From contig NC_065538.1 in NCBI RefSeq assembly GCF_932294415.1, positions 11,104,330 to 11,168,329 of the forward strand: DNA of 64,000 nt. The letters run 5' to 3'. Under the pieces are notes generated by a model. That model was not told where the DNA came from, did no database searches, and worked only from the letters and a program-made list of their open reading frames with translations. Positions 3,546 to 35,226 of the stretch are shown here, piece after piece. The stretch's first letter is position 1, and each line of letters opens with the position of its first letter. The stretch comes from Quercus robur. Taxonomy: Eukaryota; Streptophyta; Magnoliopsida; Fagales; Fagaceae. The position numbers and the translations under genes were made by a program.

Positions 3546-3576
<31 letters not shown>

Positions 3577-4280: not shown

Positions 4281-4318
<38 letters not shown>

Positions 4319-4718: not shown

Positions 4719-4756
<38 letters not shown>

Positions 4757-5567: not shown

Positions 5568-5607
<40 letters not shown>

Positions 5608-5805
5608 TGACTTGTGGTGGGCTAACATTTCAATTTGTTGTAAAAATCTTGTGAAATTTTGTTGTGGCCGTAGAAGAAATATTTAGATTATAAATTATAG
5701 AAATGCTACTGAAGAGAGAAGAAAAAAAAAACACACACACACAAACAAACAACCTGAAACCCTTAAAAAATTCACACACTTAATCTATGATTTATTTACC
5801 ATCTT

Positions 5806-5850
<45 letters not shown>

Positions 5851-6417
5851 TATGGAACTCAATTGTCTTTTTTCAGTTCTTGTCATCAATGATTGATGAA
5901 AAAGAGGTTAATTTCAGTAAAATTTTGATGTTTACGTTATTTAGGGTTTGAACTATATAAGTTTGGAGGAAAAAAAAAAAAAAAAAACGTGAGAGTCAAG
6001 TATGAGTTTGGGGAAAGAGAGCATGAGTAGGATATATATATAAATAGTCAAGTGAGTTATTTTAGTGCAAAAGACTAGGAATCCAGCATAAATGAATCAT
6101 AAAAAAACACAATCATATATCTAATCTATAATTCTATACCATTCCTTAAGTTCCCATAATCTACAGTATTTATAAGATAAACTATCGCAACAATTTGTAT
6201 AAATCTACCACCCAAAGAACCAATGTCTTTGAAACATACTACGTTAAAATTCAAATTCAAATTTGTTATCAATTTAAATCCAAAAGTCATAATTTTGATG
6301 TTTGGATTGCTCCAACTTGACGAAATGTAGGGGAATATTACTTCAAACAATCAAAGAACCGAGATAAGCAAGTTTGTTCTATTTATCATCTAAATAAGTA
6401 AATATGATGTAGGAAGA
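2076..6417. repeat. Tandem repeat unit A (about 4.3 kb, first of three)
   Basis: The unit starts inside the last exon of the small membrane-protein gene (GAGAAA codons at 2076) and ends at 6417, where unit B starts at the same exon point. Landmarks shared with units B and C, in order, are the exon tail, a 3' flank, a 490-bp hAT MITE, a run of AT-rich DNA, a GTCGACGAAGAAG-rich stretch near 4080, a GA tract near 4290, a second AT/GA tract near 5810-5850 and a final block at 5985-6417. No gene is seen in the rest. Poly-T tracts (4721-4753) and AT/GA microsatellites are frequent. Confidence 0.85.
2777..3266. mobile_element. hAT-type MITE, copy in unit A
   Basis: The ends are TAGGGGGTGTGCAT on the left and the inverse, ending CACCCCTA, on the right. 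Flanking 8-bp direct repeats are CATATCAC (2769-2776) and CATATCAT (3267-3274), one mismatch. An 8-bp duplication is the hAT hallmark. The interior is rich in CCAACCCAACCC-type motifs near both ends and has no transposase. The same insertion sits at the same place in units B and C, so it predates the triplication. Confidence 0.85.
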
Positions 6418-6525
6418 GAGAAATGGAAGATCAAACAAAAAGATCCTGACGAAAATAATTGCATTGATGAAGAGAGAGTCATTCTCAAACAGTTTATTCG
6501 AGAAAAATCGATCCCTAGTTTCTAA
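6418..6525 (+). pseudogene. Last-exon remnant at start of unit B
   Basis: Thirty-six codons read in frame to a TAA at 6523-6525: the translated start is EKWKIKQKDPDENN and the end is IREKSIPSF. This is the C-terminal end of the small membrane protein whose other copies are at 1887-2179 and 55454-55730. No upstream exon precedes it; the preceding sequence is the end of unit A. It therefore cannot be expressed as the original protein. The frame is better preserved here than in the longer copies, which suggests recent duplication from an intact parent. Confidence 0.75.
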
Positions 6526-6978
6526 AATACTATAAATGAATATTTTCCTTCGTTTTTACATGAAGCTTAATTTATCCTATATTCAAATATCAACGAGTTT
6601 CCCAATTGTCTGCCTAAAAATATGTGCAAAAACTTCATCTAATTTCATCGAAGTTCTTTACATCATTGTTGTTCAATGGAAGAATAATGTTGGTGTTAGT
6701 AAAAGATAGCGTCGACTAGTTACTTCCATGTTCTACTTATCGAAGAGCAGATGACCCATTTATCTTTTTCATGTAACAAATGTTTCACCATCAGAGATCA
6801 CTCAGATTTTCTGTTCTAGGTAAAGACTTGAGGTGTGTGGAACCTCAATTGCCCAGCCCAAATGGGCCAAATCACTCAGGTTGGAGGCTAAATGAGCCAT
6901 CAGCCCTTGGCTAAAAGATAACAACAGAAAATGATAATAACAATAAGCTCTCCTCATTGCATTCAATGACCTTAGGAT

Positions 6979-8145
6979 CAAGGTTGTCAAAATCGGGATC
7001 CTATATAGGATCGTTGAAGGTAGGTGAGATCGTAGATCGTAGGATCGGATCGTGAATCGTAAGATCCTACATATTTTCAGATTTAAAGCAAAAAACACAT
7101 TGATAATGATTTTGTATGTTGAATAATTACGTAAATTATAAATTCATCCATAAAAAAACTTAGATTTGCATCATATGATGTAATTTGCATGTCATACATT
7201 GCTAAGTCTATATTAACGAAACAAATATATTTAAGTTTTGACTTAATGTATCTAAAAGGTTTAATAAATATTTAATTAGCAACCAAATACCAAAATATTT
7301 ATCAAAACATAAGAAAAATATTTTTAAGTTCTAAGTTCCAAATTTGAAATCCAAAATAAGTTAGCAAATGGAAACTAGCTAACTACAATATGAAATTCAA
7401 AAGTAAGATGAATATTAAGATAAAGTGAATATTTAATTATTCCCATTCTAAGGTTCTTATAACCACCGTCCTAAATTCCTAATAATCATCATTCATTTCA
7501 TCATCTATGTAGACATTATATATTTGTATACTAGAGTTGTAAAAGATATCAAGATATAATTTCACACTCAACTATTCAAGTTATACCACTCAGCAACAAT
7601 TAAAGAGTATACTCAAAAAAATCAATCAATCTATATACAAATACAAGCATAACTGATAAAATTATATTAAAAAAAAAATTTAGTAATATTAGAACACAAA
7701 TTAGTATATTGATCAAACAAATTTAACAATATTATAGCTTAAAATGCAGCAAAGCCAAGTCAAATTCTTCATTTAGAAATGATGAAACATTCTTTTATTT
7801 TAATTACAAGTGAACTAGAAACTAGAAAACATTTGCTTAGGTTGACATAATTTTATAAAATAAAAAATAAAAAGTCATACCATCACAACATGAAAAAATA
7901 AAAATCCTTAAAGCTTCATCAAAACAAAAAATTTATCCAAAAACAAAAAACAAAAAATTATGTTTTTGGTAGAATCGGTAGGATCAGTAGAATCTCATTC
8001 GATCCTACGATCCTATACGATCCTACACGATCCTACGTACGATTTTACCATTTTTACGATCCTAGTGCGATTCTAATCGTTTTGGTGAGGTGGAATCGTA
8101 AAATCGTGCGATCCTACGATCTAGATTGCGATTTTGACAACCATG
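6979..8145. mobile_element. Non-autonomous hAT element, 1,167 bp
   Basis: A perfect 8-bp target duplication CTTAGGAT flanks it (6971-6978 and 8146-8153). The terminal inverted repeats are CAAGGTTGTCAAAATCG and, on the other strand, CATGGTTGTCAAAATCG. Units A (near 2632) and C (near 24574) carry the uninterrupted target, so the insertion postdates the duplication. The subterminal 130 bp at each end are packed with variants of GATCCTAC/GTAGGATC; hAT transposases are known to bind short subterminal repeats, so these are probable binding sites. The interior is AT-rich with no transposase frame. Confidence 0.92.
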
Positions 8146-8354
8146 CTTAGGATACAATTTTTGACATTTACCTTTATCAAATGGGAAGCAGCCCAACATT
8201 CAAGGTCTGACCCTAATGCTAAGCCCCTATCGAACCAAGCGCCGGATTGAGGTTTCAAGTCACCTAGAAATTTATCCTCGCACATATATTCTTTTGTGAA
8301 CATTATATTTTGTTCTTGGCCCTTGTAACCATTAATTTCATTGAACCATATCAT

Positions 8355-8865
8355 CAGAGGTATGCATCCAACCCACCAACTTGACGAAACTAACCCAACC
8401 CGATGCCTTGGGTTGGTTTCTTGAGTTGGTGCAATGGATTGAAATTTTATTTTGAACCTAAGTTAGGGTAGAATTCAGGTTATTAGTTTTTCTTTTCCAT
8501 CCATATGACTTAACTCAATCCACCTTATATATAAATTTATTTCATCACCTTATTTTAATTTGATTAGTTTGATTACTTTAGTATTTTGAGAATTTGATTT
8601 GATAAATTAAGAAATTTGGAATATAATTTAGACATCGATGTGAATTGTAAAAATTTATTGAAAAAAAAAGTGTTTAAATAATTGATGAAAGTCCAATTTT
8701 TACAAGAGATAAAATGTCTTAAGGATAATTCATTGACCCAACCCAACCTAACTCAACTCTCGTGTTGAGTTTTCTACACATGTAATGAGTTGGAAATTTC
8801 TTATCCCCACCTCATCAAGTTGGATTTTGAAAAAAATTATCCAACTAGATTTGGACACACCCCTA
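8355..8865. mobile_element. hAT-type MITE, copy in unit B
   Basis: Orthologous to the element at 2777-3266. The target duplication is a perfect CATATCAT on both sides (8347-8354 and 8866-8873). The left terminus has decayed to CAGAGGTATGCAT, while the right end keeps CACCCCTA. No coding potential. Confidence 0.85.
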
Positions 8866-10192
8866 CATATCATTATAATTCAAGCTCCTAAGCCATTTAT
8901 AGCTACCAATTCTCCAGGCTGCACTAATGATCAACAACACCCACATAAAACCAAATAATAATAATAAGATACCCTTTTTTTTATGGTCCATTCACTGCAT
9001 TTTCCTTGTTGCTTCACATTTTGATCAAAGTAGTCAATAATGTATTAGTGAATCAATGACCATTTCGTTTTGATTATAGAAATGAAATATTTCAGTAATA
9101 TATATATATATATATATATATATGAACATGTATATTTAATTAGAAGTTCATAAATTATTAAGAGTTAAAAAATGTAAACACTTACATGTTCACACCATCG
9201 TAATTCTTAATAAATTTAAATTTTGGTTTTTTATAAGACCTAATCAATTTAACTAAATGCATACTTTGACCCACTTATTCTAACCAATGAAAAACATGCA
9301 TAGGGTTTGAAAAAAAATACTATAAAATACAAATAAAAGAATAAAATATTACACATATAGGCTTAGCAATAGTATGAGGTGGAGGATTAAGTCAAATGAG
9401 AGAGTTTATAGACACAAAAAAATTTGACTTTTACTGATATGATAAATTGTTAGTAGTAGGTAAGAATGTGATGTTAATAATAGATTTAAATGAAAACTAG
9501 TAAAAACTTGTCACCTCAATTAAAAATGTTGTCAAATTTGTGTGGTTGACACGGAGAAAACGAAGATATGATTAAAAATTTTAAAACTAAAAAATAAACG
9601 GAAGGAAGCAGTAGTGGTCGACAAAGAAGACAGAGTAGTGGTCGACGAAGACGAGAAGAAGAAAATAAGGTGACAGCGTGATCAAAGTTCCCCGCTTTGG
9701 TTTTAATATTGTTTTAGACATTTGGAGTTATGGACACATAACAAAATGTCACTGTATTGGAGGTCATACTCATATCTAGACGCGGTTATCTAGTCCTTTA
9801 GCTCACTTAATTTAAGAGAGAGAGAGAGAGAGAGAGAGAGGATTTCTTCTTCAATGAGGTGGCACTGGCACCCATTATATTTATACACACAGATGAAACC
9901 GGCTTTCCCTTTCCAATGATTGGGCACCAGTAATTTTATAAAGAGTTTAGGCAGAAAGACCTAGAGAGAAGAATTGGGTTTTATTAAGGGAAAAAGCTAA
10001 AGAATGACTTAAAAGGAATTGGTTTGGAAAAGAGAAATGTTATTTATAAATCTCTTTAACCGGACCCATTAAAATAAATAAATACATGGGAGACCGGCAT
10101 CTTTATTATACAATGCGAGTTTAGACTCATTAGACAAAAAGACGTAGAAAGAGTTTACGGAGTGGACTAATTTTCAAAGTCCGCAGATGGGA

Positions 10193-10239
<47 letters not shown>

Positions 10240-11039
10240 AAAATTGACCATTAGTTCAAGTCTCCCAAGGGAGAAAATTAATCATTTTCTGGAACATCAT
10301 AATAAGAGTCTTTTGGCTGAGTAAGGAAAAAGTTTTGGCTATAACTCCCACTAAAAAAATAAATATTGTTACATATTCAAAAATCTAACAGTTAGATTGC
10401 ATATTCTTTATATTCTTAACATGCATGTTAAATTTTGTGTGAACCATATGTTATTTATTATGCAAAACTTATTTTTTATGAATAATTTTACACTACAAAA
10501 ACTTGAAATTTAAATATTTGATTTATAATATAATTATTGATCTTTGATTTTTTCTAAATTTTGCAAGTATAAAAGATATAAGATGAGTGTAGGTACAGTC
10601 ATTGGCAAGTTTATTAAGAGTACTGTAGGTACTATTAAAAGTTCTTTAAGAGAATAATGTAGTGATATTACTGAAATAGTTGAAAATTCGGTGGTGTGAT
10701 TGTCGAATTACATTAGAAATAATAAATAAATAAAAAATACAACCAAAATGTGGTAGCGGTAGTACCGAATTACTAGCTGCCCTGCTGCCCATAACAGAAA
10801 TAATAACTTCAATTAAAAAATTTACATGAAAATTATAATGTGTAAAATTATGCAGTCTCAAAACTTATGTGTATGAGCTCAATGAAAAGGCATTCGAATT
10901 CGGTTTTATATATATTATAGATTATAGATTGTACATTAGAGAAAGTTTATTAGCATAAAAAAAATCTCATAATATTTTTATGACAACTTTGTTTTAATTT
11001 GTGGTAGGTTGGTATAATCTTTATTTATATATCTATATC

Positions 11040-11071
<32 letters not shown>

Positions 11072-11255
11072 GACTTGTGGTGGGCTAACATTTCAATTTG
11101 TTGTAAAAATCTTGTGAAATTTTGTTGTGGACTTAGAAGAAATATTTAGATTATAAATTATAGAAATGCTACTGAAGAGAGAAGAAAAAAAAAACACAAA
11201 CAAACAACTTGAAACCCTTAAAAAATTCACACACTTAATCTATGATTTATTTACC

Positions 11256-11326
<71 letters not shown>

Positions 11327-11453
11327 GGAACTCAATTGTCTTTTTTCAGTTCTTGGCATCAACGATTTATGAGAAAGAGGTTTATTTCAGTAAAATTTTG
11401 ATGTTTACGTTATTTAGGGTTTGAACTATATAAGTGTCTGTTTGGATACTGCT

Positions 11454-11905
11454 TGAAGATGATAAAATATTGGGCATGATGGGCTTACCTTAATGGGCCT
11501 GACGGATTGGGCCTCTTGGGCCTGCGTAAGTACGGTCCCAGCTTTGAAGGCCCATCACTACTGACGCAGCAAGGGCCCATGGTCCGGTAATGAGAATCCT
11601 TGCTCACCACGTTTGGAAGAATTGGGAATAGAGTCCCACATTGAAAAGATGTGGGAACCAAAAAGGGAAAGTCAACCCCTTATCACTATAAAAGGCGTAA
11701 TACCCACAGAAATCGAGGTATGCTTTTATGAACCCTCTCTAACGCACTAAGTAAAACAGAGGAATTCTAACTTGACCGTCGGAGAGTCTTTGGCCGGCAC
11801 CACACCGGTGCTCTCTGAAGGATTCTTTAGTTTTCTTCGTCGTGCAGGTTCAATTCGAGTCGCGAGTACGGTGTGACCCATTGGTGACGGTTTTCGACGT
11901 CATCA
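11454..11905 (+). repeat. 5' LTR
   Basis: 452 bp, starting TGAAGATG and ending GTCATCA. It matches the 3' LTR except for a G in place of A at about 11564 (ACTGACGC here, ACTAACGC there). It contains the TATA box at 11687. Confidence 0.97.
11687..11693 (+). promoter_or_regulatory. TATA box in 5' LTR
   Basis: TATAAAA within CTATAAAAGG, mid-LTR, is the probable core promoter for genomic RNA; transcription would start about 30 bp downstream. An identical copy lies in the 3' LTR. Confidence 0.75.
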
Positions 11906-11907
11906 GT

Positions 11908-11925
11908 TGGCGCCGTCTGTGGGAA
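11908..11925 (+). other. Primer-binding site
   Basis: TGGCGCCG... begins three bases after the LTR end. The leading TGGCGCCGT matches the complement of the 3' end of a plant tRNA of the Asp/Arg type; the rest matches less well, so the exact primer tRNA is not certain. Confidence 0.75.
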
Positions 11926-11957
11926 AGCTGCATAACATTCCTAGACAAAAGAGTTAC

Positions 11958-14900
11958 ATGGTACTCACGCGCTCGATGGCAACCACTAACGACGTCCACG
12001 AAGAAGCCCCTATGACTGCCCTCGAGAGACAGGTCAAGACGCTCGCCGCAGCCGTGGAGCGCCTCACCAAGCGAAACCACGACCTGGTAGAGCAGCTGAA
12101 TCAAAAGAGTGTGGCGGTGAATAGCCAGGGAGATCAAGAAGGGAACAGTGCGGAGAGGAGAAATAACGACGGACCGCAGGAGAGCAACGCACCGAGCAAA
12201 CAAGTGCGACGGGACACTAGCATCCCTTCAGTGACGGATACAGCTCCACAACCCATCATCGCGGAAATGCAGGCGATGAAGGAGCAGATGGAAGTGCTGA
12301 TGAACGCTCTCAAGGGGCGAGTGTCCAGTGACCTTGACGACCTTGTCAACCGGACCGACTCGCCATTTACGGCGTCCGTCAATTCCTTCCCCCTGCCGAG
12401 CAAGTTCCGCATGCCAAGTATGGACAGTTATGACGGAATAAGGGACCCTCTCGATCACCTAGAGACCTTCAAAACCCTGATGCACCTTCAGGGAGTGGCA
12501 GACGCAATTATGTGTAGGGCATTCCCTACAACCCTGAAGGGCGCGGCGAGGATTTGGTTCAGCCGACTAACACCAAACTCCATCGGCACCTTCAAGGAGC
12601 TGAGCGCTCAGTTCACAACACACTTCATTGGAGGACATCGGTACAAGAAATCCACGGCTTGTCTGATGAACATCAAGCAGAGAGAGGAGGAGACGTTACG
12701 GGCCTACATATCACGCTTCAATAAAGAAGCGCTCTCGATTGACGAAGCCGACGACAAAATATTGGTGGCCGCGTTCACAAACGGGCTGAAGGGGGGTAAG
12801 TTTTTGTTCTCCCTATACAAAAACGACCCAAAGACAATGTCGGAGGTGCTTTACAGGGCCACCAAGTATATGAACGCTGAAGACGCTCTACTAGCAAGAG
12901 AAGACAGACCAAAGAAAAGAGACAGACAAGAGGATCCCCGACAGGACCAGGGGCGGAAAAAAGGACGGATGGGAGATCGAAGGGACGAGAGACGTCCAAA
13001 ACCCATGGGTGGAAGGTTCACAAGTTTCACCCCGTTGACCGCTCCGATAGACCAAGTCCTAATGCAGATTAAGGACGAAGGATCCCTGACGTTTCCGGGA
13101 AAGCTGAAGAGTGATCCCAACAAAAGGTCAAGAGACAAATATTGCCGCTTCCACCGTGACCATGGTCACGACACTGTCGATTGTTACGACTTGAAGCAAC
13201 AAATCGAAAACCTTATCCGACAAGGAAAGCTGAAGAAGTTCGTCAGCAAGGAAAGAATGGATCAACCCCAACAAGAACAACACCCCCGTCGAGAAAACGA
13301 GCGGCCAAGGCCCCCAATAGGGGACATAAGGATGATAATTGGAGGAACAGCTGCGGCCGGATCGTCCAAAAAGGCTCGCAAAACGTACCTTCGGATGGTA
13401 CAGAATGTCCAATTAGCAGGCACAGTGCCAAAGATGGCAAGAAGGGAAGGCCCTATTATCGGGTTCTCGGAAGAGGATGCAAGGCGCCTACACCATCCAC
13501 ATGACGATGCCCTCGTCGTCACCTTGCGGGCAGGCGATTACAACATCCACCGAGTGTTGGTCGACAACGGTAGTTCGGCCGACATCTTGTATTATCCGGC
13601 GTTCCAACAAATGAGGATTGATAGGGAGCTGCTGATACCAACAAACGCCCCGCTCGTTGGTTTCGGAGGGAGTAGAATCTTCCCTTTGGGCGCAGTCACG
13701 TTATCGGTGACGGTAGGAGATTACCCACAACAAATCACCAAGGACGTAACATTCTTGGTGGTCGATTGCTCGTCAGCCTACAATGCTATTATTGGGCGAC
13801 CCACGCTCAACTCGTGGAAGGCGGCAACATCAACTTACCACCTGATGATCAAGTTCCCAACAGAGTATGGGGTAGGAGAGCTACGCGGAAGTCAAATTGC
13901 CGCACGAGAATGCTACGTAGCTATGATGGAGGTGGAAGACCAGATCCAGGCTTTGAACATAGAAGAGCACCGAACGACGACAGAACCTACAGAGAAGCTA
14001 GAGGAGATAACTCTCGACGGTTCCAATCCAGACCGAACCACCAGGATCGGAACGCTTGCAAAACCCGCAATCCGTCAAGAGCTCGTGGCTTTCTTGAGAA
14101 GCAATAAGGATGTGTTCGCCTGGAGCCATGACGATATGCCAGGAATCGATCCCTCGGTCATGGTACATAAGTTGAACGTGTTGCCCTCGTTTCCACCCGT
14201 CCGACAAAAGAAGAGAGTATTCGCCCCGGAACGAGACCAAGCAATAGCGGAAGAGGTCCGCAAACTCCAAGATGCAAGCTTCATCAGGGAAGTCTACTAC
14301 CCCGATTGGCTGGCGAATGTGGTAATGGTGAAGAAAACGAGTGGCAAATGGCGGATGTGCGTGGACTTCACCGATCTTAACAAAGCATGCCCCAAAGATA
14401 GCTATCCCCTTCCAAGGGTCGACATCCTAGTGGACTCGACGGCTCAACACCAATTGCTAAGCTTCATGGATGCTTTCTCGGGTTATAACCAGATCCACAT
14501 GCACGAGGACGACCAGGAGAAGACTTCGTTTGTAACCAGTCAAGGTCTCTTCTGTTACAAAGTCATGCCATTCGGTCTGAAGAATGCAGGGGCAACATAC
14601 CAGAGACTAATGAACAAGATGTTCGCACAGCAAATCGGGAGGAACGTCCAAGTTTATGTCGACGACATGCTGGTGAAGAGCCGGAAGGAGGAAGACCATT
14701 TGGAAGATCTCAAGGAAACATTCGGCACACTCCGATCCTACAACATGAAGCTCAATCCAGGAAAGTGCGCGTTTGGTGTAACGGCAGGAAAATTCCTAGG
14801 ATTCATGGTATCTCAAAGGGGGATCGAAGCTAACCCGGACAAAATCCGAGCCATAATGGAGATGGCCCCCCCGAGAAACGTGAAGGAAGTACAGAGCCTT

Positions 14901-17186
14901 AACGGCAAGGTAGCGGCATTGAATAGATTCGTGTCGAGAGCGACGGACAAATGTTTACCTTTCTTCCGAACATTGAAAAAGTCATTCGAGTGGACGGACG
15001 AGTGTCAACGAGCATTCGAGGAGTTAAAAATCTATCTATCTTCGCCACCTCTACTGAGCCCCTCGCAACCAGGTGAAGAGCTCTTCCTCTATTTGGCCGT
15101 CTCCACTGTGGCCGTCAGCGCGGCCTTAATCAGAGAGGAGGACAGGGCACAGAAGCCCGTGTACTACGCCAGCCGGGCGCTCCGCGATGCCGAGGAAAGA
15201 TACCAACCTATGGAGAAACTCGCTTTTGCGTTGGTCACGGCGGCTCGCAAGCTCAAGCCCTACTTTCAAGCCCATACCGTGAACGTAATAACCGACAAGC
15301 CCTTGCGAAGGGCACTAAGTAATCCTGAGGCCGCAGGTCGACTGACGCTGTGGGCAATAGAATTGAGTGAGTTTGACATCAAATACCGTCCACGTGTGGC
15401 CATTAAAGGACAAGCTGTAGCCGACTTCATAGCAGAATTTACGCATGACGCGGACAAGGGGGCAGAAGAACCCCCCCAGTGGAACATCTACACCGACGGA
15501 TCATCCAATAAGCGAGTTGGAGGAGCCGGCATAATATTGCTGTCACCTGAAGGAGACGAGATTGAATCTATGATCCGTCTCGACTTCCCCATTACCAACA
15601 ACGAAGCAGAATACGAAGCGGTAGCAGCAGGACTCGACCTGGTCAAAGCCGCCGGAGCTGAAAGTGTGGTCGTGCATTGCGACTCTCAAGTCGTGACCAA
15701 TCAAGTAAACGGAGATTATGAATGCAAAGGGGAAAGGTTGAAGAGATATCTTGATCAAGTGAGGGCTAGAGTCGACGGGCTGAAAGCAATATTCGTCCAG
15801 ATCCCCAGGGGAGACAATGAGCCCGCTGATCGGCTAGCCAAAGCCGCTTCAGCAGAACATATGATAACACCGGGTAATGTGCTTTCCTTTGTTCAAATCT
15901 TTCCGCTAATAGACCCCGACAACATGCAGGAGATACGCTCCGAAAGAAACTGGACTACGCAGATAACTTCATACCTAAAGGACGGGATATTGCCTGAAGA
16001 GAAGGAGGCAGCGAGAAAGTTAAAAGTCCGAGCAGCAAGGTTCGTCTTGATAAAAGACATTCTTTACAAGAGAGGTTTCTCCCGTCCTTACCTAAGATGT
16101 CTCGGGGTTGAAGAGGCAGACTACGTGATGAGGGAAGTACACGAAGGAATATGCGGGAATCATTCTGGATCGCGGTCGTTGGTGCACAAACTGCTACGAG
16201 CTGGGTATTACTGGCCGACCATGCAAAAGGATGCTGAGTCCTACGTTAAAAGATGCGACAAATGCCAGAGGTTCAGCAATTTTATCGGACAGCCAGCTGA
16301 AGAGCTAACCCCCATAACGGCTCCATGGCCGTTCGCTCAGTGGGGACTGGACATCATGGGACCTTTCCCAACGGCGATAAGGCAGTTAAAGTTCTTGGTA
16401 GTGGGTATTGACTACTTCACGAAATGGGTAGAAGCAGAAGCCTTGGCCACCATTACAGAAAAGAACATTAGAAGTTTTGTCTGGCGAAGCATAGTATGTA
16501 GGTTTGGTATCCCTAGAGTCCTTATCTCAGATAACGGGAGGCAGTTCGATAACGGCCCCTTCCGTGATTTCTGCACACAGCTAGGGATAAAAAACCACTA
16601 CTCATCACCCGCCCATCCTCAGGCTAACGGTCAGGTTGAGGTCACAAACCGATCCCTGCTAAAGATTATCAAGACTCGGCTCGAGGGGGCAAAGGGCATA
16701 TGGCCAGAAGAATTGCCAAGCATACTGTGGGCGTATAGGACAACGGCGAGGACTCCGACAGGAGAGACACCGTTTCGACTGACATACGGGAGCGAGGCAG
16801 TCATCCCAGCAGAAGTTGGGCTCACAAGCTACAGGGTTCACAACCACGACGAGGGCAGGAATGACGAATCCACGAGGCTACAGCTGGACCTTATAGATGA
16901 GGTCAGGTCGGCTGCAGAGCAGAGGATCGCTAGATACCAGGATCGCATGTCCAGGCATTTCAACTCCCGGGTCCGACAAAGAAGCTTCCAAGTAGGAGAC
17001 CTCGTACTCAGGAGGGTCATGGGTGCAACAAGAGACCCTACACAGGGAAAACTCGGCCCCAACTGGGAAGGACCTTACAGAGTTGCGTCGTGGAAAAGGA
17101 AGGGAACATACCACCTGGAGACAGTAGACGGAGAAAAGCTGCCGCATCCGTGGAATGCTGAGCACTTGAGGAAATACTACCAGTGA
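11958..17186 (+). CDS. gag-pol: Gag-pol polyprotein (Ty3/gypsy, Tat lineage)
   Basis: One frame of 1,742 codons plus stop. I place the start at the ATG at 11958; an upstream in-frame extension has no ATG, and a second ATG follows at 11976. Approximate domain order: Gag core from residue 143; a CX3HX4HX4C zinc knuckle near 396; aspartic protease with DNGSSAD near 535; reverse transcriptase with YVDD at 900-903; a first, connection-like RNase H near 1030-1120; a second RNase H starting at the TDGSS motif near 1180; integrase HHCC near 1395-1436 and catalytic D1465, D1525, E1561 (35 residues between the last two). A basic C-terminal integrase tail ends the protein. No stop or frameshift is present, so the product could be active. 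Gag and Pol are not separated by a frameshift, so cleavage would rely on the protease. Confidence 0.96.
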   Translation: MVLTRSMATTNDVHEEAPMTALERQVKTLAAAVERLTKRNHDLVEQLNQKSVAVNSQGDQEGNSAERRNNDGPQESNAPSKQVRRDTSIPSVTDTAPQPIIAEMQAMKEQMEVLMNALKGRVSSDLDDLVNRTDSPFTASVNSFPLPSKFRMPSMDSYDGIRDPLDHLETFKTLMHLQGVADAIMCRAFPTTLKGAARIWFSRLTPNSIGTFKELSAQFTTHFIGGHRYKKSTACLMNIKQREEETLRAYISRFNKEALSIDEADDKILVAAFTNGLKGGKFLFSLYKNDPKTMSEVLYRATKYMNAEDALLAREDRPKKRDRQEDPRQDQGRKKGRMGDRRDERRPKPMGGRFTSFTPLTAPIDQVLMQIKDEGSLTFPGKLKSDPNKRSRDKYCRFHRDHGHDTVDCYDLKQQIENLIRQGKLKKFVSKERMDQPQQEQHPRRENERPRPPIGDIRMIIGGTAAAGSSKKARKTYLRMVQNVQLAGTVPKMARREGPIIGFSEEDARRLHHPHDDALVVTLRAGDYNIHRVLVDNGSSADILYYPAFQQMRIDRELLIPTNAPLVGFGGSRIFPLGAVTLSVTVGDYPQQITKDVTFLVVDCSSAYNAIIGRPTLNSWKAATSTYHLMIKFPTEYGVGELRGSQIAARECYVAMMEVEDQIQALNIEEHRTTTEPTEKLEEITLDGSNPDRTTRIGTLAKPAIRQELVAFLRSNKDVFAWSHDDMPGIDPSVMVHKLNVLPSFPPVRQKKRVFAPERDQAIAEEVRKLQDASFIREVYYPDWLANVVMVKKTSGKWRMCVDFTDLNKACPKDSYPLPRVDILVDSTAQHQLLSFMDAFSGYNQIHMHEDDQEKTSFVTSQGLFCYKVMPFGLKNAGATYQRLMNKMFAQQIGRNVQVYVDDMLVKSRKEEDHLEDLKETFGTLRSYNMKLNPGKCAFGVTAGKFLGFMVSQRGIEANPDKIRAIMEMAPPRNVKEVQSLNGKVAALNRFVSRATDKCLPFFRTLKKSFEWTDECQRAFEELKIYLSSPPLLSPSQPGEELFLYLAVSTVAVSAALIREEDRAQKPVYYASRALRDAEERYQPMEKLAFALVTAARKLKPYFQAHTVNVITDKPLRRALSNPEAAGRLTLWAIELSEFDIKYRPRVAIKGQAVADFIAEFTHDADKGAEEPPQWNIYTDGSSNKRVGGAGIILLSPEGDEIESMIRLDFPITNNEAEYEAVAAGLDLVKAAGAESVVVHCDSQVVTNQVNGDYECKGERLKRYLDQVRARVDGLKAIFVQIPRGDNEPADRLAKAASAEHMITPGNVLSFVQIFPLIDPDNMQEIRSERNWTTQITSYLKDGILPEEKEAARKLKVRAARFVLIKDILYKRGFSRPYLRCLGVEEADYVMREVHEGICGNHSGSRSLVHKLLRAGYYWPTMQKDAESYVKRCDKCQRFSNFIGQPAEELTPITAPWPFAQWGLDIMGPFPTAIRQLKFLVVGIDYFTKWVEAEALATITEKNIRSFVWRSIVCRFGIPRVLISDNGRQFDNGPFRDFCTQLGIKNHYSSPAHPQANGQVEVTNRSLLKIIKTRLEGAKGIWPEELPSILWAYRTTARTPTGETPFRLTYGSEAVIPAEVGLTSYRVHNHDEGRNDESTRLQLDLIDEVRSAAEQRIARYQDRMSRHFNSRVRQRSFQVGDLVLRRVMGATRDPTQGKLGPNWEGPYRVASWKRKGTYHLETVDGEKLPHPWNAEHLRKYYQ

Positions 17187-17450: not shown

Positions 17451-18187
17451 AGTCCACAAAGTGGACGGATCACCAACGTGATTAAACATTAGTCCACAAG
17501 TGGACGGATCACTAAGGTGATTGAACATAAGTCCACAAAGTGGACGGATCACTAAGGTGGTTCAACGAGTCCACAAAGTGGACGGATCACTAAGGTGACT
17601 AAACAAGTCTACAGTGGACAGATCACTAAGGTGATTGAACATAAGTCCACAAAGTGGACGGATCACTAAGGTGGTTCAACGAGTCCACAAAGTGGACGGA
17701 TCACTAAGGTGACTAAACAGATCACAAAGTGGACGGATCACTAAGGTGATTAAACGTAGTTCCACACAGTGGACGGGTCACTAAGGTGAACATAATTCCA
17801 CAAAGTGGACGGATCACTAAGGTGATGAAACATAAGCCACAAAGTGGACGGATCACTAAGGTGAATGAACACAAGTCCACAACGTGGACGGATCACTAAG
17901 GTGATTAAACGAGTCCACAAAGTGGACGGATCACTAAGGTGACTACACAAGTCTACAGTGGACAGATCACTAAGGTGATTAAACAAGTCCACAGTGGACG
18001 GATCACTAAGTTGATAAAACATAAGTCCATAAAGTGGACGGATCACTAAGCTGATTGAACATTAAGTCCACATAGTGGACGGATCACTAAAGTAAACGTA
18101 GTTCCACACAGTGGACGTGTCACTAAGGTGATGATACATAAATCCACGCAGTGGACGGATCACTAAACGTAAGTTCACAGTGGACGG
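17451..18187. repeat. Minisatellite array of about 20 two-hairpin units
   Basis: The units are about 36-40 bp, with consensus pieces GTCCACAAAGTGGACGG and ATCACTAAGGTGAT plus a spacer of the type TAAACATAA. Each unit therefore holds two adjacent dyads: GTCCAC/GTGGAC with a 1-3 nt loop, and ATCAC/GTGAT with a TAAG loop. Most differences between units fall in the loops or spacer, or give G-T wobble pairs. The array lies between gag-pol and the tail of the opposite-strand gene. Tandem repeats here are common in Tat elements; the double dyad is a direct observation. Confidence 0.93.
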
Positions 18188-18652
18188 ACTATCCAACGGG
18201 GATAAATAAAAGAGCACGTACGAAAAATGGACGGACAACTAACAACGTTAATTTCCGTAAGTTCATTCAAGTGTCAACAACACCGCAAAATGGACGGATC
18301 CTTATAATAAACCTCCGAAACTAGACGGAGGAAAATTCTCACGGATGTAAGTGCTCAATCAACAAAAAATAAAAAAAAAAAAAAAAATAAAAAAATAAAA
18401 AAAAATTACTAGGTCCGCCATATGGACGGAGTATCACGTACAAACAAAATATTCTCATACAAGCCCTTCCTTAGGAAAGAGGACGGACCTTTGAGCAAAG
18501 TACCAAGCAATTATAGAAAGGATATATGAACATTAAGCCAAAAGCCCAAAAGGCAAGTGTTTAATACAATTAAAGAAGACGGACAGTTCTGATATGTAAA
18601 TAAATAAATAAAAAAAAGGGACGGATGGTTCTCAAAGTAAATTACATTAACA
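18188..18652. other. Region between minisatellite and opposite-strand gene
   Basis: Scattered GACGGA motifs and an A-rich tract at about 18364-18412. On the minus strand this is the 3' flank of the spliced gene that ends at 18653, so its polyadenylation region should be here. I see no further frame. Confidence 0.55.
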
Positions 18653-20801
18653 TCAATCTGCCTTTTGTTCGGCGACCTGGACGTCCTTCGACGGGGCGGA
18701 TTCTCCGTCTCCTGGAGCAACATCTTCGCCAAAGAGGAACTCCGTATTTTCTGAAGCGACGGGGAGGGCAGAGGTCTGGGCTTGGTCCTCAAGTTTGACC
18801 ATTGATAAATCCAGCTCTGGATAGGCGTTCTTGACTTGACGGAGAGAATCGTCGAAGCCTTGAAGGAAAGAGTCTGACAGCTCGCCCAAGCAGGACTCTG
18901 AGCATCGGTACTCCTCGACGGCTACCTCCTTCGCATGACGGATCTCTTCCTTTAGTGCTTTGATCTCCGCCTCCCTTTTCTCGATGACCGTCAGCGCAGA
19001 GGCCGTCTTTTCCTCCAGCTCCTTCCTCGCCTTCTCAGAAAGCTCCAGCTTCCTCTCCATCTTGGACCTCCATTGATGGAGTTGTCCGAGCTCTTCCTCC
19101 GTCTGCTCTGCCTTTGCGCGAACCCGGTCCAAGGCACTCTCACGGTTGAGACACCGGTCCAGTAGACCCTTCATCATGACCAAGGACTGCGAGTAGAAAA
19201 GAGACCGTCACATAATGTAAATAAAAAAAAAAGAAGAGAAAAAAGAAAAGTATAGAAACTTATTTGACATAGCCAACCTGAGCGACGGAAAAGAGGCCCG
19301 TCTCCCCCATGGCCTCCGTCGAATGGTTCCCCAGATCTTCGTAGTCTTCTGCCGTGATGATGGACGACAGCTTCTCCAATGCATACTTGGAGTCGTCGCG
19401 GAGAAGGGAAGGAGGTCTCTCTTGCTTACCCTCCGGGGCCGTCATCAGTCCTTTACCCGTCCCCTTCTTAGCTGGGGTGACGGTCTTGATACCCTCAGCC
19501 ATTAAACCAACCACAGGTTCAAGTGAGACCTTTGGTTGCTTGAATGGACGGTCAGATTTTGATGTTGGTTTCCTCTTAGGTGCTGAAGCCGACACCTTAG
19601 GAACCACCTCGCCGGATTCCCTCTTCTTGACGGCTTGGGATTTGATCAGGGCTCTCCTTTTTGCGTCCTCCATCTCTGCAAATAATGACGGATGAAATTA
19701 AAACAGAATAAAGCTAAGTAAATGGCAAAGTAAAGTCTACGGGCTTACGTCTATGAACGCGCTCGTCGTATCTTATTGCTTCTTGGGTGGGCTCAGGACC
19801 GTCGCAGTACCAATGTATGGTCCTCGGATTCACCAACTTAGCCCAAGTCCTTTCCTCCGGCGTAGTCTTCTTGCAAACCTTTTCAAGAAAGCTAAACTCC
19901 TCGAGGCTGACTTGAGGGCGCCGTCTACCTGCAAAGAAAAATGATCAAGATATACACATATAACTGGACGGATATGAAGGGCAGTACAAAATTTAGACGG
20001 ATGCATACGTGTCTGATTTATAACTGCCCAAGTTGTGTCGACGGGCATGTAATCCGTCTCCCCTGGATGGTTCATCCATCGGTCACCCTCCAGGAAGAAG
20101 TACCGACTCTTCCAGTCTCTATTTGAGTCTGGGGTCTCAAAGATCACCTTCAACAAGGGGCTCCGACTGGCAAAACTGTACATCCCCCTTGATCCCGAGA
20201 TCTCGTCTGGACGGTAACAGTGAAGAAATTCACGGACCGTCAACTTCCTTTCCCCGTTTGACATTGCACCGTAAAGAATCTCCATGGCTATGAAGACCCT
20301 CCAGGCGTTAGGGGATATCTGGGTGACGGACAACCCTAGATACTGCAAGAGTTCCCTATGAAGTGTAGAAAGCGGGAATCGAAGTCCAGCCTTCAATGCC
20401 TGCTCGTACACTCCTACGCCGTCTACCCCTTCGTAATAACACTTCTCCGACCCATATGGTAGACGGATGGAGACATAGTCTGGGATTTGGAAGTTGGTCC
20501 TGAAGGTGCTGAAATGTTTTTCCCTGATGACAGATGTAAACCTATGCACAGTCCACTCTGGCAACATGATGAACTGCCTTAGTCCATCAGCGCCTACGAC
20601 GGACTCCAGTGGTTGATCCCCGTCATCATCGGAACCCTCTACTTCGACTATCTCCACATCCTCATTTGTTGAGGACGAAGAGGAGGCAGACGGACTCCTA
20701 TCTTCGCCGGGGCTCTCTTGGTCTTTATGACCGGACGGGTATACATCCTCGTATTCCGTCCCATCACGAACCACCGACTGGTTACTTGACGCACTAGACA
20801 T
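18653..20801 (-). CDS. Spliced opposite-strand gene inside the retrotransposon (putative gypsy-type transposon protein)
   Basis: Four minus-strand exons join in frame: 20801-20009, 19928-19749, 19675-19278 and 19186-18653. The introns are 80, 73 and 91 nt, all GT-AG, and the product is 634 residues with a stop at 18653. The N-terminus is Ser/Asp/Glu-rich and low complexity. A globular part, about residues 70-330, resembles the plant family annotated as 'putative gypsy type transposon' (Transposase_28-like; assigned from memory of the family, not searched). It is followed by a basic Lys/Arg stretch that could act as a nuclear signal, then a long heptad-rich coiled coil in the last exon and an acidic tail. 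Extra opposite-strand frames in Tat elements are known; their role is not. The frame survives all three splices without a stop, which argues for selection on the protein. The splice sites are inferred by eye. Confidence 0.85.
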
Positions 20802-20804
20802 TTC

Positions 20805-20923
20805 CTACAATTGACAATAAAACCTAAGACCGACGGGTTTGAAAGTGTTGACGGGTATGGAAAGCCTAACAACAATGCATGGACGAAAATGTAACTTGAC
20901 TATAGTAAATTAGAAGCACTTAC
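20805..20923 (-). other. Leader intron of the opposite-strand gene
   Basis: On the minus strand a donor GTAAGTGC begins at 20923 and an acceptor TTGTAG ends at 20805, four bases upstream of the ATG at 20801. The sites are strong and the size (119 nt) matches plant introns. It would place an intron in the 5' untranslated leader. Confidence 0.65.
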
Positions 20924-21083
20924 CGAACTTAGCAGAGGATAGGTGACGGTTGGTGTAATCAGCAAGTATTCGTCCTCGACGGATTGCACTGATAAGGTTG
21001 ACGGCTTTGCTCTGACAGGGTTGACGGCTTCGCTCTGACAAGTGTTTTCTGAGTGAAAATTGAAAAATGAAAGAGTAAGGCGC

Positions 21084-21096
21084 CTTATATATATAG
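21084..21096 (-). promoter_or_regulatory. TATA box for the opposite-strand gene
   Basis: Read on the minus strand: CTATATATATAAGG. It lies about 285 bp upstream of the ATG at 20801 and about 160 bp upstream of the leader-intron donor, a sensible position for a core promoter pointing away from the 3' LTR. Confidence 0.65.
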
Positions 21097-21155
21097 GAAG
21101 TGCACGGAAGACGAAGCGACACTTCGATCCTATACAACGACCATTCAGAGAGTGA

Positions 21156-21161
21156 CACGTG
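21156..21161. promoter_or_regulatory. G-box (CACGTG)
   Basis: Palindromic CACGTG in the context ACACGTGGC, 60 bp upstream of the minus-strand TATA box. This is the core bound by plant bZIP/bHLH factors and the ABRE core, so the opposite-strand gene could respond to stress or light. Regulation is inferred. Confidence 0.5.
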
Positions 21162-21319
21162 GCATGCTTAATAAATGCTGACAACCTGTCAGTACGTACC
21201 AACAGATTTGTACCTGCCATGTATCCGTCAACTTGATGATTCTTCCTTTGACGGGTTGATCCAGCTGGGACCGTCGTTCTATCTTGCCTGAATCCGTCAT
21301 AGCCATATGTAAGGACCGT

Positions 21320-21365
21320 CACCCCACTGATCCTTTGACCTTAAAGGTGACGGATCATTGGGGTG
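21320..21365. other. Hairpin abutting the polypurine tract
   Basis: The left arm CACCCCACTGATCC (21320-21333) and right arm GGATCATTGGGGTG (21352-21365) pair at 13 of 14 positions around an 18-nt loop that holds a further CCTT/AAGG dyad. The right arm overlaps the start of the purine tract. Confidence 0.75.
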
Positions 21366-21376
21366 AAGGGGGCAAC
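21360..21376 (+). other. Polypurine tract
   Basis: GGGGTGAAGGGGGCAAC lies immediately before the 3' LTR and is expected to prime plus-strand DNA synthesis. Confidence 0.8.
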
Positions 21377-21828
21377 TGAAGATGATAAAATATTGGGCAT
21401 GATGGGCTTACCTTAATGGGCCTGACGGATTGGGCCTCTTGGGCCTGCGTAAGTACGGTCCCAGCTTTGAAGGCCCATCACTACTAACGCAGCAAGGGCC
21501 CATGGTCCGGTAATGAGAATCCTTGCTCACCACGTTTGGAAGAATTGGGAATAGAGTCCCACATTGAAAAGATGTGGGAACCAAAAAGGGAAAGTCAACC
21601 CCTTATCACTATAAAAGGCGTAATACCCACAGAAATCGAGGTATGCTTTTATGAACCCTCTCTAACGCACTAAGTAAAACAGAGGAATTCTAACTTGACC
21701 GTCGGAGAGTCTTTGGCCGGCACCACACCGGTGCTCTCTGAAGGATTCTTTAGTTTTCTTCGTCGTGCAGGTTCAATTCGAGTCGCGAGTACGGTGTGAC
21801 CCATTGGTGACGGTTTTCGACGTCATCA
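21377..21828 (+). repeat. 3' LTR
   Basis: 452 bp with TG...CA ends, one base different from the 5' LTR. It is followed by the target duplication CTGCT at 21829-21833. Confidence 0.97.
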
Positions 21829-22583
21829 CTGCTTATTGCTAAAAACTGAAAATAATGTCGCAAAATAATTTTTAAATGTGTGAATAGTATCGTGAGACCC
21901 AGTTTTAAAATTAGTGGTCCATTTAGATACAGTTTATTTTGCTTAAAACTGAAAACACTGTAGCAAAATAATTTTTAAATGTGTGAATTTAAATGTGTGA
22001 ATAGTGCCGTGAGACCATTTTTTAATGAAAACGTTACTAGAAAGTAAGATTTGTGGGTCTCATGAACAGTGCACGAGACCCACTGGTATGCACTGTCCAC
22101 CGCTTATTTTGCTAGTGTGAACAGTGCACTGACAAAAAAGTCAAAAATCATAGCTCAAAAAAAAAAAAAAAAAAAAAAAAACCGCAAATGCGAAACGCGT
22201 TGCTTTTCATCCGTATCTAAAAATATACTAGAAGTGCTAAAATTCGTACTTGCAGGTCCCGTAAATAGTACACGAAATCCACAGAAAAATACCAAACGCA
22301 GGGAGAGAAATAATTTCAGTGCAATCCAAACGTAGGCTAAGTATCAGTTTGGATAGCACTAAAAACAAATTTCAGTTGCATTGGGCTTCTTTTTTTTTTT
22401 TTTTTTTTTTTGTGTGGATCTCGTGCACTATTCACGGGGCCCGCAAGTACAAAATTCAGAAAATATAATTTTAAAATTAGGTCTCACAGCACTATTCACA
22501 CATTTAAAAATTATTTTACTACAGTATTTTCAGTTTTCAATTTTCAGCAATAAGCAGTATCTAAACAAATCCTAAGTTTGGAG

Positions 22584-23330: not shown

Positions 23331-23704
23331 AGTCAAGGGAGTTAGTTTAGTGCAAAAGACTAGGAGTCCAACATAAATGAATCATAAAAAAAAAACACAA
23401 TCATATATCTAGTCTATAATTATATACTATTCCTTAAGTTCCCATAATCTACAATATTTATAAGATAAACTACCGCAACTATCTGTATAAATCCACCACC
23501 CAAAGAACCAATGTCTTTGAAACATACTCCGTTAAAATTCAAATTCAAATTAGTTATCAATTTAATCCAAAAGCCATAATTTTGAAGTTTGGATTGCTCC
23601 AACTTGACGCCATGTAGGGGATTATTACTTTAAACAATCAAAGAACCGAGATAAGCAAGTTTGTTCTATTTATCATCTAAATAAGTAAATATGATATAGG
23701 AAGA

Positions 23705-23812
23705 GAGAAATGGAAGATCAAACAAAACGATCCAGAAGAAAATAATTGCATTGATGAAGAGAAAGTCATTCTCAAACAATTTATTCGAGCAAAATCGATC
23801 CCTAGTTTCTAA
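23705..23812 (+). pseudogene. Last-exon remnant at start of unit C
   Basis: Thirty-six codons in frame to TAA at 23810-23812, ending IRAKSIPSF, parallel to the remnant at 6418-6525. No upstream exon. It marks the second junction between tandem units. Confidence 0.75.
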
Positions 23813-24189
23813 TTATTAATACTATAAATGAATATTTTCCTTCGTTTTTACATGAAGCTTAATTTATCCTATATTCAAATATCAACGAGTTTCCCAATTG
23901 TCTGCCTAAAAATGTGTGCAAAAACTTCATCTAATTTCATCGAAGTTCTTTACATCATTGTTGTTCAATACAAGAATAATGTTGGTGTTAGTTAGTAAAA
24001 GATAGCATTAACTAGTTACTTCCATGTTCTGCCAATCGAAGAGCAGATGGCCCGTTTATCTTTTTCATGTAACAAATATTTCATTATCAGAGATCACTCA
24101 GATTTTCTGTTCTAGGTAAAGACTTGACGGGTGTGAAACCTCAATTTTGCCCAGCCCAAATGGGCCAAATCACTCAGGTTGGAGGCTAA

Positions 24190-24488
24190 GGGTCTATTTG
24201 GATTGAGCTTATTTTTGCTGAAACTGAAAACTGAAACTGAAAACACTGTAACAAAATAATTTTTAAATGTGTGAATAGTGCCATGAGACTCATATTTAAT
24301 GAAAAAGTTGCTGAAAAGTGGAATTTGTGGGTCCGTGAATAGTGCACTGGTGCACTATTTACTGTGGAAAAGTCAACCTTTGCGGCTACTGTTCATGAAC
24401 AATAGTCGCATTACTCCTTGAAATGCGTGAAAAAAAAAAAAAAAACCCAGAAAACGCAGACTTATAAACGCCGAATTCAAACCCCACC
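24190..24488. mobile_element. Tourist-like MITE, about 299 bp
   Basis: It interrupts a run that is continuous in unit B (GGAGGCTAAATGAGCC near 6885-6898). The ends are GGGTCTATTTGGATT and the inverse ending CAAACCCC. Flanks TAA (24187-24189) and GAA (24489-24491) fit a 3-bp duplication with one change. The interior shares the ACTGTAACAAAATAATTTT text with the elements at 11434 and 42054. Confidence 0.75.
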
Positions 24489-24779
24489 GAAATGAGCCAT
24501 CAGCCCTTGGCTAAAAGATAACAACAGAAAATGATAATAACAATAAGCTCTCCTCATTGCATTCAATGACCTTAGGATACAATTTTTGACATTTACCTTT
24601 ATCAAATTTGAAATAGCCCAACATTCAAGGTCCAACACTAATGCTAAGCCCCTATCGAACCAAGCCCTGGATTAAGGTTTCAAGTCACCAAGAAATTTAC
24701 CCTCACACATATATTCTTTTGTGAACATTATATTTTGTTCTTGGTGCTTGTAACCATTAAATTCAATGAACCATATCAT

Positions 24780-25291
24780 TAAGGGTGTGCATCCAACCCA
24801 CCAACTTGACGAAACTAACCCAACCCGATGCCTTGAGTTGGTTTCTTGAGTTGGTGCAATGGGTTGAAATTTTATTTTGAGCCTAAGTTAGGGTAGGATT
24901 CAGGTTCTTAGTTTTTCTTTTCCATCCATATGACCTAACTCAATCCACCTTATATACAAATTTATTTCATCACCTTATTTTAATTTGATTAGTTTGATTA
25001 ATTTAGTATTTTGAGAATTAGATTTGATAAATTAAGAAATTTGGAATATAATTTAAACATTGATGTGAATTGTAATAATTTATTGAAAAAAAAAAGTGTT
25101 TAAATAGTTGAGGAAAGTCCAACTTTTACAAGAGATAAAATGTCTAAAGGATAATTCATTGACCCAACCCAACCTAACCCAACCCTCAGGTTGAGTTTTC
25201 TACACATGTGATGGGTTGGAAATTTCTTATCCCCACCTTATCAAGTTGGATTTTGAAAAAAATTATCCAACTTGATTTGGACACACCCCTA
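24780..25291. mobile_element. hAT-type MITE, copy in unit C
   Basis: Orthologous to 2777-3266 and 8355-8865. The left end is TAAGGGTGTGCAT and the right end CACCCCTA. The 8-bp flanks are CATATCAT (24772-24779) and CATTTCAT (25292-25299). Confidence 0.85.
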
Positions 25292-25764
25292 CATTTCATA
25301 ATAATTCAAACTTGCAAGTCATTTCTACATACCAGTTCTCCAGGCTTCACAAATGTCCAACAACACCCACATAAAACCAAATAATACTAATAAAATACCA
25401 TTTTTTTTTTTTTTATGGTCCTTTCACTGCATTTTCCTTGTTGTTTCACATTTTGATCAAAGTAGTCAATATTGTACCAGTGATTCAATAACCATTTCGT
25501 ATTGATTAGGGAAACAAAATACTTAAGTATTAATTAATATCAATTATTAAGAGTTTAAAAAATGGATAACCTTACATGTTCACACCATCATAATTCTTTT
25601 TGAGAAGACGTAATTGATTTAACTAAATGTATACTTTGACCTACTTAATCTAACCTATGAAAAAACATGCACAGAGTTTGAAAACATCACCAGAAAACAC
25701 ACATGAAAGAATAAAATATTACACATATACACTTAGCAATCGTGTTAGGTGGAAGATATATTGA

Positions 25765-25952
25765 GAGTCTGTTTGAATACCGCTTATTTTGCTGAAACTA
25801 AAAATTTATTGTTGAAAGTACTGTAAATAAAGGTAAAAGTACAGCGAGACTTATGAATAGTACCAAAAAGTGCAGTGGGACCTATGAATAATGGCAAAAA
25901 TAAGCTGAATAGTGAAATAATTTTCATTTATAATCTGTATCTAAATAGAGGC
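25765..25952. mobile_element. Tourist-like MITE, 188 bp
   Basis: The left end GAGTCTGTTTGAATAC mirrors the right end GTATCTAAATAGAGGC. Flanks are TGA and TAA. It is absent at the matching place in units A (near 3841) and B (near 9380) and abuts the next MITE. Confidence 0.65.
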
Positions 25953-25955
25953 TAA

Positions 25956-26156
25956 GGGTGTGCTTGGATACCACTTATTTTGATGAAACTGAAAACTTAT
26001 TGCTGAAAGTATTGTAGATAAATGTAAAAGTTAGTTAAAATGGTACAGTAGAACCCATGAATAGTACCAAATAATGCAGTGAAGCCCATGAGTAGTAGTT
26101 AAAATAAGCTGAATAGTAAAATAATTTTAATTTTCCATTTCAATCCAAACGCACCC
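25956..26156. mobile_element. Tourist-like MITE, 201 bp
   Basis: Perfect TAA duplication (25953-25955 and 26157-26159). The ends GGGTGTGCTTGGAT and ATCCAAACGCACCC are inverted with two mismatches. It shares the TAA with the preceding MITE, so one inserted at the edge of the other. No coding capacity. Confidence 0.85.
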
Positions 26157-26640
26157 TAAATCAAAAAGAGAAAGTTTAGGGACACAAAAAATTTGATATT
26201 TATTTATATGACAAATTGTTAATAATAGGTAAAAATAGATGTTAATCATAGACTTAAACCAAAACCAATAAAAATTTGTCATTTCTACTAATATTAAAAA
26301 TGGTGCCAAATTTTGTGTGTACGTACCCCTTTATTTTCTTATGCTGAATTTGTGTCTACGTACCTTACTCAAGTAAAATTTGTCTAGAAAGTACCTCAGA
26401 TTAGTAGACCTACCCATTTGGCATAAGTAAATAAAAAGAAGCAAAAGTGACAAAAAATAAAATAAAAAAAGCGTGTGGCTGAAACCGAGAAAAGTCAGAA
26501 AACGAAGATAAGATTAAAATTTTCAAACTAAAAGATAATACAAAATGAATCAGTGGTCGAAGAAGAAGAAGACATAGTAGTGGCAAACGATGAGATGAAG
26601 AAAATAAGGTGACAACATCAAAGTTCCCCACTTTGGTTTT

Positions 26641-34739: not shown

Positions 34740-35195
34740 GGCCAAAATGGCCAAATACCACCTTTTTTGGAAATTTTTAGCAAAAAAAACACTGTTTTGG
34801 AAATAAATGACAAACTACCACTTTTTCCAGAACTCGAGTTTCAGAAACTCGAGTTCTTTATCAATTCTGCCATCGTGGCACTGTTGAGTTGGATTTATGC
34901 GATTAAAAAAAATTATGTGGTACTCGAGCTTGGTAAACTCGAGTACCATGCAACACAATACTCGAGTATACCAAGCTCGAGTACCTTTTATAAATAAAAT
35001 GCAAAAAAAAAAAAAAAAAAAAAAAATTACACAATCCAAACTCGAGTACTGTGTAAATTTTTTTTTTTTTTTTTTTGGGATAAACAACAAATAAACATAA
35101 AATAATAATAACTCCAAGTACAACTGCTCTAGGTTGTTTAGTGCACCTAACTCTAAAAATAATAATAAAATTTTTAGACATGGAAATTGTAAAAA

Positions 35196-35226
<31 letters not shown>

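Follow-up and report, generated by a model that had tools for sequence, protein, structure and literature searches.

Can an intron-containing gene persist on the antisense strand of a young LTR retrotransposon, and what would its protein do there? The question is raised by a 64,000-nucleotide stretch of Quercus robur DNA (the window), in which an earlier reading of the letters (the original prediction) placed a spliced minus-strand gene beside the 3' LTR of such an element.

Host element

The retrotransposon proved as young as claimed, since a single base distinguishes its two 452-bp LTRs and the 5-bp duplication CTGCT lies at both ends (Table 1). The LTRs enclose a gag-pol frame of 5,280 bases, which encodes reverse transcriptase (RT), RNase H and integrase in the gypsy order. 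In the gag-pol product the Pfam RT_RNaseH match (1055-1156) is followed by a separate RVT_3 match (1196-1314), which we take to be the archaeal-type RNase H (aRH) and, on that basis, the aRH of the Tat lineage. Such a second, archaeal-type RNase H after RT-RH has been reported for Tat elements (PMC6317226). The sizes of the LTR (452 bp), the internal region (9,471 bp) and the pol-3'LTR region (4,190 bp), calculated from the coordinates, all fall inside the ranges given in the available text on Retand (315-1,194, 7,380-12,869 and 2,933-6,566 bp, respectively; PMC11963269). Its architecture marks the host element as a Ty3-gypsy copy of the Retand/Tat type. Another repeat family flanks it on both sides (2121-10915 and 23384-26635), with two or three copies that are 60-95% alike over blocks of 100-300 nt.

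Table 1. Features of the element and of its antisense gene, in window coordinates.
Feature	Position	Strand	Basis or remarks
Target-site duplication CTGCT, left	11449..11453	.	read off sequence
5' LTR	11454..11905	+	blastn vs 3' LTR: 452 bp, 1 mismatch
gag-pol open frame (gag, RT, two RNase H-like domains, integrase)	11907..17186	+	Pfam
Tandem array, ~40-nt unit, 18.6 copies	17451..18166	.	GTGGACGGATCACT in each consensus unit
Dispersed motif field, 34 GACGG + 20 CCGTC	18201..21376	.	3' UTR, exons, introns, 5' UTR, promoter
Exon 4: coiled-coil-like region and stop codon	18653..19186	-	dN/dS 0.227
Intron 3, phase 0	19187..19277	-	donor GT 47/47, acceptor AG 45/47 copies
Exon 3, basic linker	19278..19675	-	dN/dS 0.146
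Intron 2, phase 1	19676..19748	-	donor 46/47, acceptor 46/47 copies
Exon 2	19749..19928	-	dN/dS 0.079
Intron 1, phase 1	19929..20008	-	donor 47/47, acceptor 46/47 copies
Exon 1, coding segment with start codon and TRP28 core	20009..20801	-	PF04195 residues 132-169; dN/dS 0.109
Leader intron in 5' UTR	20805..20923	-	GT 47/47, AG 47/47 copies
TATA box	21086..21095	-	46-47 of 47 copies
G-box CACGTG	21156..21161	-	44/47 copies
3' LTR	21377..21828	+	blastn vs 5' LTR; 3 motif sites
Target-site duplication CTGCT, right	21829..21833	.	read off sequence

Structure of the antisense gene and selection among its copies

The four minus-strand exons join in frame, as predicted, into 634 amino acids followed by a stop, and the introns have GT...AG ends. 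The leader intron, the TATA box and the G-box also lie in the order claimed and are conserved across copies; the TATA region consists of two overlapping TATATATA words, kept in 46 and 47 of the 47 aligned copies. The three coding introns measure 80, 73 and 91 nt, none of which is divisible by three. Without splicing, exon 1 runs through intron 1 as an ORF of 323 amino acids (19830-20801), so that ORF-based surveys would take it as the gene and lose exons 2-4. A probe of the exon 3-exon 4 junction, allowing up to three mismatches, found no processed copy in the host genome; this search covered one junction without a positive control, and the exon halves of the probe differ by at most three bases in all 47 copies.

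To describe selection, we aligned 47 copies from the same genome: the window copy, its seven best DNA matches and 39 further loci. The latter are 40 loci picked from 145 protein matches to spread identity, minus L039, which was left out because it matches the first half only. Because similarity in exon 1 or in DNA decided which copies were chosen, the sample is biased towards conservation. At each of the eight splice sites, 45 to 47 copies retain the dinucleotide. The exon columns are ungapped apart from a 3-nt insertion in exon 4 shared by L045 and L048, whereas introns 1-3 and the 3' UTR are gapped and more diverged than the adjacent exons, and 37 of the 47 copies have no internal stop.

A dN/dS near 1 among related copies had been named as the result that would count against the gene; we found 0.14 to 0.25 in all seven divergence bins, with the pairwise ratio dropping from 0.25 to 0.14 as divergence rises. 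When copy L001 was compared with the 46 others, dN/dS was 0.14 in the gene frame and 1.46-2.37 in four of the five other frames; the fifth, the sense-strand mirror frame, gave 0.18 but contains 20 stops. Polymorphisms present in at least five copies comprise 67 non-synonymous and 140 synonymous changes, singletons 193 and 158, respectively, and nine of the ten stop changes are singletons. This pattern indicates purifying selection between copies together with decay after insertion. The codon comparisons show that the antisense gene is kept by natural selection, beyond what chance would leave.

Protein family and conservation of the introns

The suspected relationship of the product to Transposase_28 (TRP28) held up with the help of its relatives. 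The Pfam model PF04195 matches residues 132-169 of the 634-residue product with an E value of 6.4e-5 and 23.6 bits, below the Pfam cut-off of 26.2, which homologous families of the host genome do pass. Searching the host genome with PF04195 gave 150 scored matches among 4,148 candidates, and the same search of 14 control genomes gave none. Eight divergent loci of the host genome pass PF04195, match the window protein in tblastn with E values of 1e-14 to 1e-27, and encode a TRP28-type protein antisense to pol. Since these homologues both pass PF04195 and match the window protein, we regard the latter as a divergent TRP28 protein. No relative outside the host genome was confirmed in viral contigs, and none of the solved structures matched the exon-1 profile. 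Selection and homology together demonstrate a spliced, protein-coding and presumably transcribed antisense gene of a Retand/Tat retrotransposon.

The eight loci fall into family A (L049, L050, L051 and L056) and family B (L052-L055). Junctions were read directly in L050 and L051 and in L052-L055 (the start of exon 2 of L055 was not located), and the intron phases are 1, 1 and 0, as in the window gene. Introns 1 and 2 split a codon after its first base, exon 3 resumes after intron 2 with the split codon and then ATG, also as in the window; intron 3 falls on a codon boundary. The window protein is only about 28-35% identical to those of the two families, and 27-28% in exon 1 for family B. The shared phases at such divergence indicate that the introns are older than the families and survived many rounds of retrotransposition, which fits the original argument that introns antisense to the genomic RNA can persist because splicing never removes them from the transcript that replicates.

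Plant LTR elements are generally intron-free, with Ogre and EVADE named as exceptions (PMC12786077). Like the window element, Ogre is a plant Tat-clade element with an intron; the Ogre intron, however, separates gag-prot from pol on the sense strand, and some transcripts lose it by splicing (PMC6317226), whereas splicing cannot remove the antisense introns of the window element from its genomic RNA. The Retand survey identified antisense ORFs with ORF Finder, and its available text describes single ORFs and does not mention introns (PMC11963269), in contrast to the leader intron and three coding introns found here. The separate antisense ORFs of that survey, some of them labelled Smc, may be exons of one gene. 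The conserved introns also mean that ORF-based surveys detect only fragments of the gene. In the literature searched, which covered few subscription papers, we found no description of TRP28 genes as intron-containing.

Enrichment and conservation of the GACGG motif

Antisense TRP28 genes are a known hallmark of Retand elements, the lineage is already known to include an antisense gene driven from its own promoter, and in the available text of the survey such genes occur in 97% of the Retand clusters with recent activity, their function being called unknown (PMC11963269; PMC7264820). The layout at this locus follows that of maize Grande (GENE23), rice RIRE2 and Silene Retand, with antisense TRP28 between pol and the 3' LTR, a long pol-3'LTR region, tandem arrays and, as in Grande, an own promoter (PMC11963269; PMC7264820). 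We think that the more novel feature is instead a field of GACGG words, which the original prediction had missed and which is new here. A dispersed, selected GACG-type motif is unmentioned in the available text of the Retand reports (PMC11963269; PMC7264820), and the literature searched, with few subscription papers covered, yielded no report of one in such elements.

The motif field contains 54 GACGG/CCGTC sites where dinucleotides predict 5.9; beyond the element, the window shows 14 sites where 14.8 are expected. The whole element carries 103 sites, with density peaks in the tandem array, the promoter and the antisense gene, a thinner distribution in gag-pol and few sites in the LTR. The antisense CDS has 31 sites against 10.1 in synonymous shuffles and gag-pol has 24 against 11.4; in neither did any of 1000 shuffles reach the observed count, and in both GACGG ranks first among 5-mers. 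The hAT-like and LRR control frames of the window contain 0 or 1 site. Mutation bias or base composition as the source of the motif was rejected on the dinucleotide expectation, the synonymous shuffles, the non-CpG positions and the non-element controls. All motif starts in the element are at least 14 bp apart (of 102 gaps none is shorter, against 8.3 expected; P 0.001, with the limit set post hoc), a spacing which was not repeated in most of the 11 divergent loci tested and is given no weight; a period of 11 or 23 bp is weak.

One control slice (34937-38112) scored 23.1 for CTCGA, above the GACGG field, because this palindrome is counted on both strands within a repeated word. That word, with core CTCGAG and often ACTCGAGT, occurs at about 17 places in 34833-38451, runs upstream of and into a frame at 39174-41511 that is presumably a hAT-like transposase, and looks like the sub-terminal repeats of a DNA transposon. 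An LRR receptor-like gene (37920-47896) appears split into an N-terminal LRR frame (37920-38306) and a large LRR frame (45662-47896), with the hAT-like frames between them, as identified by reading translations.

Leaving out the LTR, we then compared the CpGs of the window copy across the aligned copies. CpG was kept in 2301 of 2386 comparisons within GACGG (96%) and in 2956 of 4014 outside the motif (74%). The difference holds in exons (1376/1426 vs 2593/3496 for other CpGs) and in non-coding DNA (925/960 vs 797/1116), and it repeats with six other reference copies. Within GACGA retention in the window family equals the background (301/414, or.727, at nine sites), and in the LTR, which has three motif sites, motif CpGs are not preferentially kept (107/138 vs 702/870). 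Four-fold sites are identical at.972 inside motifs (n=40) and.840 outside (n=256; p 2.6e-5), and at non-coding motif sites all five positions reach.962-.996 against a non-CpG background of.878. This conservation of all five positions indicates more than a CpG effect alone, and the use of both strands (34 and 20 sites) favours a reader of DNA over a reader of RNA.

The divergent families favour related words. GACGA is the top 5-mer in 11 of 12 divergent loci, the remaining one (L059) having CGTCA first and GACGA second, and the favoured hexamer is GGACGA in family A and TGACGA in family B. On the opposite strand, in the pol frames, CGTCC ranks top in all four family-A loci and CGTCA in two of the four family-B loci; in the other two (L053 and L055) the motif is not top-ranked. 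The antisense exons show a coding excess of GACGA in six loci (z 2.3-5.2) and none in L049 and L056, where short segments of 156 and 504 coding bases were located. With three reference loci per family, CpG retention in families A and B was.78-.86 in GACGA,.79-.91 in GACGG,.54 to.71 in GACGC/T and.61-.75 in other CpGs, so that GACGA, unlike in the window family, is retained above background. Family-B spacers also contain GACGG (4-12 per kb), and the contrast between families is therefore not absolute. In addition, the loci within each family are closely related, and the co-variation of protein and motif thus amounts to three family-level points only. The ATHILA lineage, sought as a motif control, gave no match among two candidates. 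Together, these data show a motif that is enriched, imprinted on codon choice and kept by selection, with the favoured word varying by family.

Proposed function and alternatives

Our preferred reading, to which we assign a probability of roughly 0.45, is a spliced antisense TRP28 gene whose protein reads GACGG for self-specific, most likely anti-silencing regulation. The TATA/G-box promoter beside the 3' LTR would drive a five-exon mRNA, with a non-coding leader exon and four coding exons, whose product would be a TRP28 protein that contains a basic linker and has a C-terminus resembling a coiled coil. This protein would enter the nucleus, as Grande GENE23 does (PMC7264820), and bind GACGG in double-stranded element DNA, in the tandem array, promoter and gene body and more thinly in gag-pol; DNA-binding residues of TRP28 have been given by a published predictor (PMC11963269). 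There it would regulate in trans, specifically for elements of its own kind, and most likely lift or prevent the silencing of related copies, as VANC does on VANDAL.

TRP28 as the motif reader and anti-silencing as the outcome are inferred. The nearest precedent understood in detail is Arabidopsis VANC/VANDAL, in which motif arrays are family-specific and the VANC protein removes methylation (PMC5735166; PMC10398659). Both systems combine an element-encoded protein with a short family-specific motif that also occurs in tandem repeats, here across three families and not absolutely. We do not claim that the window element belongs to that system: the carrier differs, VANDAL being a Mu-like DNA transposon and the window element an LTR retrotransposon. 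According to the available text, VANC binds mainly non-coding DNA and binds coding probes without the motif poorly (PMC5735166), whereas here the motif is also in exons and in pol codons. A regulatory antisense gene of an LTR element with a nuclear protein is known from HTLV-1 HBZ (PMC11963269); the likeness is an analogy of layout only, and the regulatory role here is our proposal.

A word that is used on both strands, imprinted on codons, maintained and shifting between families with a diverged protein is the trace expected of a self-recognition pair. We tentatively propose that TRP28 and its target words form a VANC-independent system of sequence-specific self-recognition (anti-silencing), in which selection would have written the words and protein and motif would co-diverge. 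Equally tentatively, the words would be GACGG here and GGACGA or TGACGA in the sister families, placed in arrays, promoters, introns and synonymous codons of both genes. The unconstrained motif in the LTR is a difficulty for simple anti-silencing, since such a factor might be expected at the LTR, and it leaves room for autoregulation, cDNA handling or integration roles.

Two other readings of the motif seem unlikely, to a similar degree. A host DNA-binding protein, such as a transcription factor recognizing a GACG core, could read the motif and be exploited by the elements, with TRP28 in an unrelated accessory role. The GACG core common to all three families would suit one family of host factors, and TGACG resembles the bZIP core; the favoured flank nevertheless varies by family (GACGG, GGACGA, TGACGA), GACGA is without visible selection in the window family, and the non-element DNA of the window has no excess (14 vs 14.8 expected). 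TRP28 might also bind the motif for replication, by coating or importing double-stranded cDNA or by directing integration to existing copies or away from them. This would agree with the sites in gag-pol as well as in the 3' region (103 per element, few in the LTR) and with the nuclear localisation reported for Grande GENE23 (PMC7264820), but a density that peaks over the tandem array, the promoter and the antisense gene and is lower in gag-pol looks more like regulation.

It is less probable still that the motif has no reader and is a by-product of context-dependent mutation or of an old repeat expansion. The tandem array shows that motif-bearing units expand, and some CpG contexts may mutate more slowly; these processes are at odds, however, with the excess found at synonymous positions of two genes that lie on opposite strands, the conservation of non-CpG motif positions, and a CpG retention that is unequal for GACGG and GACGA within the same DNA, with a preference that varies from family to family. 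Finally, a functional antisense transcript in place of the protein, acting through dsRNA or siRNA as suggested for such elements, is very improbable, because, although such regulation of LTR elements is known (PMC7264820; PMC12786077), the restriction of codon-level constraint to the gene frame (dN/dS 0.14), the nearly indel-free exons beside indel-carrying introns and the coding introns conserved between families indicate that the protein is required.

The conserved family-specific DNA word turns the question of TRP28 function into a direct binding test. If the preferred reading, of TRP28 as the reader of GACGG, is true, sequence-specific self-recognition would extend from VANDAL DNA transposons to LTR retrotransposons, and the codon-level imprint would show the extent to which an element rewrites itself for recognition.
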